DNA of 30,811 nt from a virus: positions 1 through 30,811 of IMG/VR virus record IMGVR_UViG_3300013132_000169. The stretch is one strand, 5' to 3'. Every line of letters starts with the position of its first letter. Position 1 is the first letter of the stretch. The translations under genes and the position numbers were made by a program. Shown here in pieces: positions 901-14,384 of this stretch. The notes beneath the pieces are model-generated. The model did not search any database and was not told where the DNA came from. It worked only from the letters and a program-made list of their open reading frames with translations.

Positions 901-1983
901 TTAGGTCGCGTTAACGATATTGTTAATTAATACATTCTTAGCGGGCGCCATACAGAATACAGCCTGATCCGAATAAAGACGAAGCTCGTAAGCTGCGCTG
1001 TTTTCGAGATCGCGGAAGAATTCTTCTCCCTGTCCAGGACGCTTGAAGGTCATGTCGGTTGAACCAACACGGAACCAGTCGTCGGTGCTGAGCATGTATG
1101 CATATCCTTCCTTCACGTAAATCGAAGGTTCGATTTCGATCAGGCCGTTCTGAGAGTGGAACATCAGCTTCTCAGAGCCGTTTTCCATCTTAGAAGCGCT
1201 GTAAGAACCGTCATAACGACGGAGTGCAGCTTGGTCGGAGAGCATGTTTGCCCATGCGCGTGGATTAACCATCGCGAGTAGCGGTCCTTCGAGGCCCTTT
1301 TCAACTGCACGAGCTGCAGCAAGGTTTAGCTTAGTGAAGCTAAGAGCTGCGCCGCCAGCGGAGAAAATGTTACCACGGAAGAGGTTGTAGGTTCCAACGT
1401 CGATGTTGAACAGGGTTCCAGAGCTGATGCTCAGGATCTTGTGAATGCCTGGGAATTCGTTCCCATAAGCACCCTTGTGCCAAATCACGTCAGTTGCAAC
1501 AACGTTAGCAGCAGCGGCGTCAGCATTGAGGGTGATAACACGGGTGTCCATGTTGACAGAAACAACCTTGAATTCGCCACGGCTGGTGGAACCAGCGGCG
1601 TCACGAATTTCGATTGGCATTCCTTCTGCACCGGCCCAGATTCCCGGAGCCCATTCAGCTGTTGCAATGGTGACAGCGGTGGTTGCTACAGAAGCAACTG
1701 CGCCATATCCCATCTGACCATAAAGAAGTTCGATTTCGAGCTTCTTAGCCATCGAGCGAAGCATGTTCGCAACGAGGAACTTGGTTGCATCCATGAAAGC
1801 CTTCTGACCGCCAAGGGCGGCACGGCTTGCAGCGACGTAGCCAAGGAGCGAGCGGAGAACCACTGGGGAACCCTTAACTTGAGCGTCCTTGACCTGTCCT
1901 GCTACTGGAGCATTGAGGTTGAAAGCGTCTTCATCGCTACCAGCGAAGGTGACACCGTGTTCGAGGCCAAGAATGACCGGTTG
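901..1983 (-). CDS. Major capsid protein, exon 2 (residues 58-417 of the spliced protein)
   Basis: This is the main part of the major capsid protein. Unspliced it could start only at a GTG (1986) with no ribosome binding site, and an in-frame TAA lies two codons further up, so it is not an independent gene. Joined to the exon at 2789-2959 by removing the group I intron, the junction reads GNLYH-QPVILGLEHGVTF and gives 417 residues, a normal capsid length. The exon encodes a helix-rich segment (SLLGYVAASRAALGGQKAF), a beta-rich middle with DMDTRVITLN-like strands, and a C-terminus with SAAYELRLYSDQAVF. Position after the scaffold gene in the order terminase, portal, scaffold, capsid supports the call. 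Codon use is more GC-rich than in the inserted nuclease genes. Confidence 0.9.
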   Translation of the reverse strand, partial: QPVILGLEHGVTFAGSDEDAFNLNAPVAGQVKDAQVKGSPVVLRSLLGYVAASRAALGGQKAFMDATKFLVANMLRSMAKKLEIELLYGQMGYGAVASVATTAVTIATAEWAPGIWAGAEGMPIEIRDAAGSTSRGEFKVVSVNMDTRVITLNADAAAANVVATDVIWHKGAYGNEFPGIHKILSISSGTLFNIDVGTYNLFRGNIFSAGGAALSFTKLNLAAARAVEKGLEGPLLAMVNPRAWANMLSDQAALRRYDGSYSASKMENGSEKLMFHSQNGLIEIEPSIYVKEGYAYMLSTDDWFRVGSTDMTFKRPGQGEEFFRDLENSAAYELRLYSDQAVFCMAPAKNVLINNIVNAT

Positions 1984-2788
1984 CACCGGTTGTTACTCTC
2001 TTTATTCAAGAGGGAGAAGTCATTTCTGCTTCTCTCTACCGTTTCTTGTAAAATTCAAAGTGTAATCCACCAGTCATAGATCGCTTACCATTACAAACTA
2101 GACTAATCTTGCTGTATTGTAGTCCTAGCTCTTTGGCCGCGTGTCTTGCGCTGGGATATACCTTTCCGGTTTCTAAACAAATAACGGGTTTAGCGTGGCT
2201 TTCAAATTGAGCCTGTCGCCATTTTTCCCCGTTAGTTTTACCAAGCCGTGCCGTTCTATTTTTTGCAGCATGCTCAGGATTAACCGGTTTTCCTTTTCGC
2301 TCTAAAGACCACTTCCGCTTTTGTTCTTCGGAATGTTCTTGAGAATACCCATTTATTGAGCCGGGACTTTTATTCAATCCTTTTTTCAAAAGATCGTATT
2401 GAGCAATTAATTTTCGCTCTAAAATCGCAGCTTCTTCTCGTGTTAAAAAATCAACAACGAGTTCAATTGTATAAGTATCATCAAGCTTTTTTGTCCAGCG
2501 ATGTTCGTTCAATCTTTTTTCAATAGACTGACCGGTTAAACCGCAGTAGACAACTTCTTTTTCCTTATTGCGAATAAGGTATACTTTGTAATTTTGCATC
2601 GCGTTGTTCCTCGAAAGGATTCCGCTACTTTTATTTCGGTAGATCGGACTATCGCATCAACAGTAACATTATTAACTTACTGTTGTCAACTCGTTTAGTC
2701 TCTCACGGTGCCTTTCGGCTTCCGCCTTGTTGTCCTGTTTTCAGGAGTTTCAAGTCAATTAGAGTCGATTTTACTACCACCAACATTA
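1984..2788 (-). ncRNA. Group I self-splicing intron in the capsid gene
   Basis: An 805-nt insert splits the capsid frame. P1 pairs the 5' exon end CTACCAT (2795-2789) with guide GTGGTAG (2780-2774), with the expected U-G wobble at the splice site. P10 pairs GTTG (2784-2781) with the 3' exon start CAAC. P3 is AACTC/GAGTT. P7 is GACTA (2700-2696) with TAGTC (2651-2647). P8 is a perfect 9-bp stem, 2685-2677 with 2666-2658. The P9 region has hairpins GAGAAG/CTTCTC and CTCTT/AAGAG just before the 3' end. The intron ends in G (1984). The endonuclease gene lies between P7 and P9. An unspliced message would stop one codon into the intron at TAA. Confidence 0.92.
2036..2599 (-). CDS. GIY-YIG homing endonuclease, intron-encoded
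   Basis: A 187-residue protein inside the capsid intron. The N-terminus has the GIY-YIG core in variant form (KVYLIRNK then VYCGLTGQSIEKRLNEHR), where Y, the R of RLNEH and a later acidic residue (E of LERKLIAQYD) are the usual catalytic positions. A basic middle (SEEQKRKWSLERKGKPVNPEHA) resembles NUMOD-type DNA-binding repeats. The C-terminal part (SARHAAKELGLQYSKISLVCNGK) is a helix-turn-helix-like NUMOD segment. The start has a GAGGA ribosome binding site. It would cut intronless capsid alleles and spread the intron. Confidence 0.9.
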   Translation of the reverse strand: MQNYKVYLIRNKEKEVVYCGLTGQSIEKRLNEHRWTKKLDDTYTIELVVDFLTREEAAILERKLIAQYDLLKKGLNKSPGSINGYSQEHSEEQKRKWSLERKGKPVNPEHAAKNRTARLGKTNGEKWRQAQFESHAKPVICLETGKVYPSARHAAKELGLQYSKISLVCNGKRSMTGGLHFEFYKKR

Positions 2789-3459: not shown

Positions 3460-4026
3460 TTAAGGGTTTGGTTTTATTAGCTTTTTTATTCTTTTTAAAA
3501 ACGATTCATTAATTTTAACGTTAACAGAAACGTTTTGATTTAAATGAGCAAATTCACCATGTAATATTACAGCGGCTTTATTATAAGCAGCGGCAGCCTC
3601 TTCAGCTGTTGTAAAAAATCCCAAATGAATCGAAGAATGATTTAAAGTTATATAAGCTCGCCATTTACCATTTAATTTGGTCACGCCCTTAAACTTAGAA
3701 TGTTTTACTCGGTTACGTAATGTAGTAATTTTTCGGTTGGCCGCGTTTTCAGCAACCGAACAAATTCGTAAATTTTCTTTTCTGTTATCTAATCCACTTC
3801 CGTTTTTATGGTCAACCACTTTTTTAGGATCAGTTGCTTTCATTATAATACGATGCATTTTTACTATCGGCGGGTCAAATGGATAAATGCCCCTTGCTTG
3901 CACATATTGTTTAGTTTGTCTTCCTCGATATTTTACGGAAGCGACATACCAACGATATTTGCTCACAAGAGGCACGTCTTCATCATCAACTAAAACAGAA
4001 ACGTTTTTAATTTGAATAACGGCCAT
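3460..4026 (-). CDS. HNH homing endonuclease with AP2 DNA-binding domain
   Basis: A 188-residue protein. Residues about 1-50 form an N-terminal domain (VLVDDEDVPLVSKYRWYV) typical of HNH_3-type phage endonucleases. The nuclease core is MHRIIM, VVDHKNGSGLDNRKENLRIC, with H and N in the expected order. A C-terminal AP2 domain (SKFKGVTKLNGKWRAYITLN through TAEEAAAAYNKAA) gives DNA recognition. It sits between the scaffold gene and the 100-residue gene, outside any visible intron, so it is a free-standing endonuclease. An inverted repeat, AATTAC...GTAATT, lies just before the start codon and may restrain its expression. Confidence 0.93.
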   Translation of the reverse strand: MAVIQIKNVSVLVDDEDVPLVSKYRWYVASVKYRGRQTKQYVQARGIYPFDPPIVKMHRIIMKATDPKKVVDHKNGSGLDNRKENLRICSVAENAANRKITTLRNRVKHSKFKGVTKLNGKWRAYITLNHSSIHLGFFTTAEEAAAAYNKAAVILHGEFAHLNQNVSVNVKINESFLKRIKKLIKPNP

Positions 4027-11414: not shown

Positions 11415-14384
11415 TTAAATTTGAACAACCGGAATATTAGTTAAAGTCACTTGGATTTTCAATCTTTGGAAAGTAATACTTCCAAATGATCTATCAACTA
11501 GTAAGTTTCCTACTGTAGGCAGATTCATCAAAATGGATTTAGATGCAGAGTGCGCTACGAATTCTGTTGAATACTGCCCATGTATAGAGTTCGCGTAAAC
11601 GCCGGTTCCTAAAACAGGTAAAATACCAAAAGAGCCTGCGCCAGAGACGCGAACGTCTTTCGTTGAAAAAGATGTTAGATCGCCAAAAGTCCAGCCTTGT
11701 GGCATCGGAATTCCATAAGGCGTATTTCCAACTGGTGCAATTTCTTGATTTCCAGCTGTCGTGTTCATGTTCAAATCGTATGTTAACGACATCAATCCGT
11801 TTTCAATAGAGTAACTAAACGAATCAATAGTTGTTGCAGCTCCTAAAACTGGAACCTCTCCATTTGTTCCTTTTAATCCCCATTCTGTAGCTAAGCCAGT
11901 AAAAGCGCTTGAAGGGCTGCCACCACCACCACCACCTTCACCGCCACCTTCACCGCTACCACCACCGCCACCACCGCCAGAGACGCGAACGTCTTTGAGG
12001 TAAGCAACGCGGATTTTGTCACCAGAAGCAAGCGCTTGTTCACCAGCTGGGAGCATAGCTCCAGCGAATGACATGCGAGTTACACCGCCAACAACGCTGA
12101 CAGTATAATCTTCATCTTGGTGCATTACGAGACGGTTAACAGAAACCACCATTGACGGAGCAAATGCTTTGTTGCTAAGGTCAATATAACCAGCAGCAAT
12201 CATTGCAGAGTCAACTTCGTACGCAGTTTCACGAACGTAGTTTTCACCGAACGCTTCAAGAGCAGCGGCACGAGCAGCTGCTTCAGCAGAAACAGCGGCT
12301 GCGCGAGCAGCTTCTTCAGCGTCAAGTTCAGATTGAAGAGCAGAAACAGCCGCAGCACGTGCGGATTCTTCAGCATCAATCTCAGCCTGTAAAGCAGCAT
12401 CAGCCGCTTGACGAGCCGCAGTTTCAGCAGCAAGTGCAGAACTGGAACCGGTTCCGAGAGAGCTAATAGCGTTGTTTAGATTGCTATCAGCAGCTTCGAA
12501 AGCAGCAACGATTTCGGTAAGCGAATCAAGAGCAGCTGGATCAACATTCGAAAGAATGTTGTTAATCTGCGATTGAAGATTTGCATCACCAGAAGCACGA
12601 GCGGTTGCTTCAGCAGAAACAGCTTCGCTTCTGTCGAAGATTTCTTGATCAATTTTTGCATCAAGAGCTTCTTCAGCAGCTTCAGCGCGTGCGGTTTCAT
12701 CAGAAATATCGCCAGCAAGAGCAGTGTCAGCAGCAGCACGAGCAGCAGCTTCATCTGCAATTTCTTCTGCACGAGCATCCGATTCAGCAGCAAGAGCAGC
12801 ACTAAGAGCAGTATCAGCGGCTGCGCGAGCAACGGCTTCTGCATCAATAGCGTCTTGAAGATCTTCATCAGCAGCTGCGCGAGCAGCAGCTTCTGCAGTT
12901 ACGGCAGCAGCACGAGCGACTTCTTCAGCGTCAATCTCAGCCTGAAGAGCAGCATCAGCAGCTGCACGGGCAGCAGCTTCAGCAGCATCGTCAGCAGCGC
13001 GAGTTGAAGCTTCAGCGGCAATTGCGTTAACACGAGCGGTTTGTTCAGCAGAAATAGCAGCTTCGCGAGCAGCTTCTTCAGCGTCAATTGCTTCTTGAAG
13101 ATCAGCATCCCCTGCAATACGAAGAGTTGCTTCAGCATCATCGGCAGCAGCGCGTGCAGCAGCTTCAGCAGCTACAGCAGCGGTACGAGCAGACGCTTCA
13201 GCAATATCGGCAGCTTCGCGAGCAGCTTCTTCTGCATCAAGTGCAGATTGAAGATCAGCATCGCCAGCAGCACGAGCGGTTGCTTCAGCAGCATCAGCAG
13301 CTGCACGAGCAGCAGCTTCTGCGGAAACAGCGGCAGCACGAGCGACTTCTTCAGCGTCAATTTCAGCTTGAAGAGCAGCTTCTGCTGCTTCAGCACGAGC
13401 AATTTCATCCGCGAGAGCTGAGCTTGAGCCAGTTCCAAGAGCGCTGATAGCATTATTTAGATTGCTATCAGCAGCTTGAAATGCAGCAACAACTTCAGTA
13501 AGAGAATCAAGAGCAGCTGGGTCGGTGTTGGAAAGAACGTTGTCAATCCGAACGCCAAGCGCCAGTTCAGCAGCGGTTGCACGAGCAACTTCGTCAGCAA
13601 GATCTGATTCAAGAACGTCGTCTGCAGCTTCACGAGCAGCAGCTTCTGCCGAGACAGCGGCAGCGCGAGCTGCAGCTTCAGCGGAAACAGCGGCAATACG
13701 AGCAGCTTCTTCTGCATCAATTGCGGATTCAAGAGCGGTGTCAGCAGCAGCGCGAGCTACTTCTTCAGCATCGATTTCGAGTTGAAGAGCAGCGTCTGCG
13801 GCTTCACGAGCAGTTTGTTCAGCAGAAACAGCAGCAGCACGTGCGGCTGCTTCAGCGGAAACAGCAGCTGCGCGAGCAGCTTCTTCTGCATCAATCTCAG
13901 CTTGTAAAGCGGCGTCTGCTGCTTCACGAGCGGAAGCTTCAGCAGAAACGGCAGCTGCACGAGCTGCTTCTTCTGCATCAAGTTCACCCTGAAGCGCTGT
14001 ATCAGCAGCTGCACGAGCAGCGGCTTCAGCAGCGAGATCAGCTTCAAGATCAGCAATAGCACCTTGGAGGTTATCGCCGACTTGATCTTCAAGAGCAGAA
14101 ATACTTGCTTCAAGGCTGCTTACAGCAGCTGCACGAGCAGCGGCTTCAGCGGCATCGCCTGAATCAACATATTGCTTGTTAGCAAGATCTGAACTTTCTG
14201 CAGGAGCTGCAGAAGATTTTGGACTTACAAGAAACTGCAGTTTATCGGCAGAATCAAGCTTAAAAAGCTCAACAGCTGCTCCTCCTGCATCTTTTGCGCG
14301 GACGGCTTGATTGTTGAGCACCAAAATCTTGGCACCATCAACCTCGCCATCCCCTATAAATTTCTTTTTAATAAAAATACTCAT
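11415..14384 (-). CDS. Long Ala-rich coiled-coil tail fibre or adhesin
   Basis: 989 residues. N-terminal about 75 residues form a small attachment domain ending DLANKQYVDSGDAAE, a common fibre motif. A very long rod (about 80-740) consists of 11-residue repeats such as AEAAARAAAVS and of ALQAEIDAEEAARAAA units, a hendecad coiled coil, probably trimeric. It is interrupted twice by a near-identical globular block (NVLSNTDPAALDSLTEVVAA, FQAADSNLNNAISALGTGSS), at residues about 282-322 and about 610-650. Next is a beta segment, a Gly/Ser/Glu-rich hinge (SGGGGGGGSGEGGGEGGG) and a beta-rich C-terminal head of about 165 residues, the likely receptor-binding part. Confidence 0.88.
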   Translation of the reverse strand: MSIFIKKKFIGDGEVDGAKILVLNNQAVRAKDAGGAAVELFKLDSADKLQFLVSPKSSAAPAESSDLANKQYVDSGDAAEAAARAAAVSSLEASISALEDQVGDNLQGAIADLEADLAAEAAARAAADTALQGELDAEEAARAAAVSAEASAREAADAALQAEIDAEEAARAAAVSAEAAARAAAVSAEQTAREAADAALQLEIDAEEVARAAADTALESAIDAEEAARIAAVSAEAAARAAAVSAEAAAREAADDVLESDLADEVARATAAELALGVRIDNVLSNTDPAALDSLTEVVAAFQAADSNLNNAISALGTGSSSALADEIARAEAAEAALQAEIDAEEVARAAAVSAEAAARAAADAAEATARAAGDADLQSALDAEEAAREAADIAEASARTAAVAAEAAARAAADDAEATLRIAGDADLQEAIDAEEAAREAAISAEQTARVNAIAAEASTRAADDAAEAAARAAADAALQAEIDAEEVARAAAVTAEAAARAAADEDLQDAIDAEAVARAAADTALSAALAAESDARAEEIADEAAARAAADTALAGDISDETARAEAAEEALDAKIDQEIFDRSEAVSAEATARASGDANLQSQINNILSNVDPAALDSLTEIVAAFEAADSNLNNAISSLGTGSSSALAAETAARQAADAALQAEIDAEESARAAAVSALQSELDAEEAARAAAVSAEAAARAAALEAFGENYVRETAYEVDSAMIAAGYIDLSNKAFAPSMVVSVNRLVMHQDEDYTVSVVGGVTRMSFAGAMLPAGEQALASGDKIRVAYLKDVRVSGGGGGGGSGEGGGEGGGGGGSPSSAFTGLATEWGLKGTNGEVPVLGAATTIDSFSYSIENGLMSLTYDLNMNTTAGNQEIAPVGNTPYGIPMPQGWTFGDLTSFSTKDVRVSGAGSFGILPVLGTGVYANSIHGQYSTEFVAHSASKSILMNLPTVGNLLVDRSFGSITFQRLKIQVTLTNIPVVQI

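Follow-up and report, generated by a model that had tools for sequence, protein, structure and literature searches.

The mycobacteriophage LittleE carries an 819 bp intron in its major capsid gene, the splicing of which was proven by RT-PCR and by the N-terminus of the protein (PMC3706429), and the same paper cites a capsid intron in the lactococcal phage Tuc2009. Multiple group I introns within a single phage gene are also on record, namely two or three per gene in the Bastillevirinae (PMC11878797) and three per gene in Twort (Landthaler and Shub 1999, as cited in PMC11878797). Moreover, the Jug huge phages are heavily loaded with small group I introns (~206 nt), which interrupt essential genes, and metatranscriptomes support splicing of 37 of 76 (PMC12363816). 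As regards the reverse-splicing route to new sites, a 2014 review found no direct experimental evidence (PMC3984707).

The intron described here, found in a 30,811-nucleotide stretch of DNA from an uncultured phage (the window), is another case of the capsid group I introns known from LittleE and Tuc2009. We put the probability that it is a mobile group I intron, equipped with a homing endonuclease of the GIY-YIG family and inserted behind codon 57 of the gene for the major capsid protein, at about 95%. The features are listed in Table 1.

Table 1. Features of the interrupted capsid gene in the window.
Feature	Position	Strand	Details
Exon 1 of the major capsid gene	2959-2789	(-)	ATG at 2959, 57 codons, end CTACCAT
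Group I intron, 805 nt	2788-1984	(-)	starts TAATGTTGGTGGTAG, last letters GTAACAACCGGTG
Internal guide sequence	2774-2788	(-)	GUUG (P10 with exon 2 CAAC), then GUGGUAG (P1 with exon 1 CUACCAU)
Catalytic core (P3, P4, P5, P6, P7, P8, P9)	2620-2773	(-)	covariance model match 2620-2788, 156 bits (score not independent, the window intron being part of the training set)
GIY-YIG homing endonuclease ORF, 187 aa	2599-2036	(-)	3' periphery of the intron, downstream of P9
Near-duplicate CAACCGGTG / CAACCGGTC spanning the 3' splice site	1975-1992	(-)	CAACCGG copies at 1992 and 1983
Exon 2 of the major capsid gene	1983-901	(-)	first letters CAACCGG
Predicted junction-spanning peptide of the joined capsid protein			GNLYHQPVILGLEHGV

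Joining exon 1 to exon 2 (CTACCAT/CAACCGG) is in frame and gives 417 aa. All splice coordinates of the original prediction hold, as does the 417-residue capsid protein that it derived by splicing GNLYH to QPVILGLEHGV. Reading from the ATG at 2959 without splicing ends at the TAA that opens the intron. The false GTG start that had been foreseen for annotators does occur in a mechanical ORF list, which contains a truncated, GTG-started ORF of 361 aa (1986-901) and a separate ORF of 187 aa (2599-2036). The product of exon 2 resembles the phrog_14242 major head protein (E 8e-15), and a structure model of the capsid homologue in the closest uninterrupted relative (L001) has an HK97-type fold, aligning to phage capsids with Z up to 12.1; the model has a pLDDT of 63, which is moderate confidence, and served for the fold class only. 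The capsid product is thus predicted to be an HK97-fold major capsid protein. Further along this strand are the genes for the portal protein and the large subunit of the terminase.

Three other genes in the window are of note, all on the (-) strand. A free-standing HNH_3 endonuclease gene (3460-4026) lies two genes upstream of the capsid gene and was found, among the fetched loci, only in phages that have the codon-57 GIY-YIG intron (L002, L003 and L010) and not in L001. An endonuclease VII-like gene (191-892) just downstream of the capsid gene is an ordinary neighbour, having relatives in numerous phages of the family, some with introns and some lacking them. Finally, positions 11415-14384 encode a protein of 989 aa, perhaps a tail fibre, that has extended repeats rich in alanine (AARAAA/EAAAR) and a linker rich in glycine.

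Scans of IMG/VR (three) and of GTDB genomes (one) yielded 92 distinct capsid loci, including the window. The GTDB genomes contributed two loci only, both in MAG bins of doubtful assignment, and the public phage records held a single distant relative of the capsid protein (30% identity) and no DNA match to the window intron. Among the first 80 loci 56 are uninterrupted, with a junction that reads GNLYHQPV..LG or a close variant. The check whether related capsids begin at QPVILG therefore has a negative outcome: all 56 carry the N-terminal part, which supports the claim that the 57 N-terminal residues belong to the capsid protein. Removing the intron restores the uninterrupted gene seen in these relatives. 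The capsid protein of L001 is 93% identical over 400 residues, and its empty junction reads CTTTATCAC/CAGCCAGTT. Introns of the window type, absent in L001, are present in L002, L003, L010, L039 and others. L002 and L003, which come from two other samples, have an 805-nt insert with the same junctions as in the window and a 100% identical endonuclease, and in L010 707 of 805 intron positions (88%) are identical and the pairings are kept.

Introns were mapped with a profile-guided spliced aligner written for this study, in which exons have to end in T, introns in G, and introns have to be at least 150 nt long. On the window it returned the sites of the original prediction, and on 68 full-length uninterrupted loci it placed no intron in codons 13-160. 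Apparent introns upstream of codon 13 or in codons 412-415 were due to divergent termini and were discarded.

Both guide pairings that had been proposed for the window form. P1 at the 5' splice site (CUACCAU/GUGGUAG, with U·G at the splice site) scores 15.8, which is matched or exceeded by 0.22% of random positions that follow a T, and P10 is CAAC/GUUG. For the 47 introns in codons 21-92 the median P1 score is 14.8, compared to 4.8 by chance (p 1e-26). Moreover, the guide tracks the exon: at codon 57 the pairs are CUACCAU/GUGGUAG, AUACCAU/GUGGUAU, UUACCAU/GUGGUAA and UUCCAU/GUGGAA, so that divergent independent copies keep P1 by changes that compensate for synonymous exon changes. At site 77 P1 is GCCU/GGGC in one case and GCGU/GCGC in another, and P10 varies likewise between UCAACUU/GAGUUGA and UUAACUU/AAGUUAA. 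Codon 57 is CAT in seven of seven occupied alleles and CAC in 50 of 75 empty ones, a bias that is partly owed to the T rule of the aligner. The window intron ends in GGTG and thus has the terminal G, which in the introns of the relatives is a mapping constraint.

The hairpins P3, P7, P8 and P9, named in the original prediction, are all found in the core. In the window P3 is UCGACUC/GAGUUGA, P7 GACUA/UAGUC and P9 CUAC/GUAG; covariation supports P3, P4, P5, P6, P7 and P8, and P9 is seen in the sequence. An unguided RNAalifold analysis of 15 related cores recovered P3, P4, P5, P6 and P8, with double compensatory changes in 19 of 26 pairs. When the P7 pseudoknot is included, the 15 introns have 31 core pairs with 98.7% of the cells paired and double changes in 20 of the 31; the last P7 pair, for example, is A-U, G-C or U-A. 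In all, 66 double-change cells were observed, compared to 17.3 in shuffles (0 of 500 shuffles reached this number), and pairing partners slid by 1-3 columns were only 32-43% paired. The evidential weight lies in these pair counts and in the matches of the covariance model to introns outside its training set (L203, 149 bits; L181, 96 bits; L081, 52 bits). When loci totalling 1.05 Mb and 40 whole virus records were scanned, the model found matches in capsid introns only. A scan of the window with Rfam at the gathering cut-off gave no match, because the model is insensitive to this branch of introns: Intron_gpI (RF00028) gives the window intron 25.2 bits (E 4e-4; curated cut-off 50 bits), and only an intron of a relative, at codon 67 of L040, scores above the cut-off with 52.8 bits. 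The covariation-supported core of the intron family thus backs the weak Rfam match and the assignment of the insert to group I.

The GIY-YIG endonuclease reported inside the intron is confirmed by a PF01541 match of 34.0 bits (cut-off 22.6, E 3.6e-8), which is accompanied by a match to the I-HmuI NUMOD-like domain PF22083 (36.2 bits, cut-off 27) and by similarity to phrog_314 (E 7e-23). Its GIY and YIG motifs are degenerate (KVY and YCG), and Y7, Y18, G20, R29 and E61 are invariant in three homologues. Compared to the L010 endonuclease, 14 first, 8 second and 59 third codon positions differ, with dN 0.043, dS 0.926 and dN/dS ~0.05; the ORF is under purifying selection. A homing cycle of gain, decay and loss predicts mixed endonuclease states, as are present at site 57: the window, L010 and L039 have an intact ORF and L109 a truncated one, L036, L057 and L060 (introns of 204-256 nt) have none, and the site is empty in most relatives.

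Judged from the sequence, the intron would work as follows. In the capsid mRNA the guide GUGGUAG would pair with the end of exon 1, CUACCAU, and set the U·G at the 5' splice site, which a guanosine held in P7 would attack. The released exon 1 would then attack after the last G of the intron, with exon 2 held by P10 (GUUG/CAAC), and the joined mRNA would encode the 417-residue HK97-fold capsid protein. The TAA at the start of the intron would halt ribosomes ahead of the ribozyme. In mixed infections, capsid alleles that lack the intron are presumably cleaved by the endonuclease in the vicinity of codon 57, and repair would copy the intron into them.

Were there no splicing, the capsid protein would start at the GTG at 1986 and exon 1 would encode a separate 57-aa peptide. 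The mechanical ORF list reports exactly these ORFs, but the N-terminal part is fused to QPV..LG in every one of the 56 uninterrupted relatives, and the GTG, being the final triplet of the intron, does not exist in intronless alleles, which makes this reading extremely unlikely. The insert might also be dead in the sampled phage, a group I intron that was once active but has lost the ability to splice and has left the capsid gene a pseudogene. Such an insert would fit with the low Rfam score and the metagenomic origin of the record; however, the exons remain free of stops, selection on the endonuclease is purifying, the inserts of L002 and L003 agree with that of the window in length, junctions and endonuclease, and the divergent copy of L010 keeps the pairings. 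We therefore regard a dead insert as very unlikely. Finally, there is next to no chance that the insert is of another type, for which no supporting observation was found. The in-frame stop at its first codon rules out an intein, the lack of an Rfam group II match speaks against a group II intron, the same insert in separate assemblies against an assembly artefact, and the covarying P3, P6 and P7 against all of these.

Splicing at the upstream copy of CAACCGG (1992), which would add QPV in frame, has an equally negligible probability. The P10 tetramer CAAC is available at both copies, but the upstream one is unusable for splicing, since it would give an intron with a final A, where G is required, and no uninterrupted relative has the extra QPV. 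The duplicate, which the original prediction had noted as a possible mark of the insertion history, does exist; the historical reading, however, did not stand. Other introns at site 57 (L036, L039, L057 and L060) end in AACAATGGG, AACAAATG, AACAAATTG and AACAATTG, respectively, without the duplicate, and only L010 shares it in part. This absence speaks against an insertion footprint, and the duplicate is best read as a late local change in the introns of the window and L010.

The capsid gene family contains many more group I introns. Of the 92 loci 23 are interrupted, a quarter that is descriptive only, since the loci are finds of pattern scans and no random sample. They have 48 introns at 19 sites. 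As many as 47 introns are found at 18 sites within codons 21-92 (given as codon/phase: 21/0, 24/1, 34/0, 49/0, 53/0, 54/2, 55/1, 57/0, 59/0, 59/2, 61/2, 63/0, 67/0, 67/2, 77/1, 79/2, 86/0 and 92/2), and one more is at 407/2 in L078. The latter was kept, as it has a P1 and a class B end and was matched by a model that had not been trained on it. In each of the 47 introns of codons 21-92 an in-frame stop occurs at most 20 nt from the 5' splice site. The capsid gene of L078 (3175-6191) has five group I introns (54/2, 59/0, 79/2, 92/2 and 407/2), and its exon between 54/2 and 59/0 measures 13 nt. The introns at 54/2 and 79/2 of L078 have TAGGGTCCT in common in their guides, and both target AACCT in the exon. 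This likeness is what intragenic transposition by reverse splicing would leave; it could also be due to chance.

The introns fall into three core types. Class A, which is window-like, occupies seven sites in codons 24, 55, 57, 59 (two phases), 61 and 63 with wholly different guide sequences, class B, defined by model R2, eleven sites, and class C, which comes with LAGLIDADG and scores 37 bits with Rfam in L036, site 21. The endonucleases encoded in capsid introns are of the GIY-YIG, LAGLIDADG or HNH/NUMOD3 type. The GIY-YIG lineage of the window (57/0) also occurs at 55/1, in L181, whose intron of 1459 nt has two endonuclease ORFs, a GIY-YIG one near the 5' end that is 49% identical to that of the window and a LAGLIDADG-like one further 3'. 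In some class B introns, including L041 (4160-5006) and L045 (1473-2377), the endonuclease ORF seems to run into the ribozyme core, and the C-terminal motif of these ORFs, NQSGS...HAQRLE, resembles translated conserved core sequence.

The two intron models match the capsid gene almost exclusively. Their single match outside it is to the 5' part of a portal gene (L229, ~1501-1604), where a class B intron lies with an endonuclease-like ORF nearby (1903-2589); the gene belongs to the phage of L001 (G023), the nearest intronless relative of the window. On the capsid tree, 16 changes are required to explain where introns of any kind are present, and 7 to explain the 7 carriers at site 57 alone; introns of the capsid gene therefore come and go. 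In the intron tree 2 of 14 branches are starred, and it cannot tell whether each site was invaded once. The mean majority identity is 0.80 in codons 21-92 and 0.72 in the rest of the gene, a higher conservation that may aid the endonucleases and hardly explains the clustering by itself. A tentative explanation, to which we give about one chance in three, is that codons 1-92 are a landing zone in which related introns of group I have been redirected to numerous sites close to one another in the gene. If true, the landing zone would be a natural experiment on how introns reach new sites, be it by loose endonuclease cutting or by reverse splicing.

With 19 sites, three ribozyme lineages, three endonuclease families and both occupied and empty alleles, the family constitutes a data set on the movement of group I introns. 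Capsid genes are normally among the most highly expressed late genes. This one tolerates up to five introns that are predicted to be self-splicing, and splicing must therefore be efficient. For annotation it means that, in about one in four of the relatives sampled, the protein that is most abundant in the virion would come out truncated or in pieces, and that mini-exons of 13-24 nt would be missed altogether. In the searched literature, to which most subscription papers do not belong, we found no report of the intron load of this capsid family, nor of a phage gene with five group I introns or of any gene with as many sites.

The LittleE intron resembles that of the window in its size, in the U that ends exon 1, in the G that ends the intron and in having a putative homing endonuclease. 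However, LittleE belongs to another phage group, its endonuclease is LAGLIDADG-like and encoded on the opposite strand, and there is one intron only. The endonuclease of the window is like the phrog_314/SegB type, in which the GIY-YIG domain is followed by a NUMOD-like DNA-binding domain; compared to the records listed from the phage collection, it is at best ~33% identical over most of the protein. Twort and the Bastillevirinae share with the capsid family that several group I introns, some with homing endonucleases, interrupt one gene, but their hosts are DNA polymerase, terminase and other genes with up to three introns, whereas here it is the capsid gene, with up to five introns and 19 sites. 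The Jug phages, finally, have their introns spread over many genes, ~18.5 per genome, whereas those described here are confined nearly to the capsid gene.
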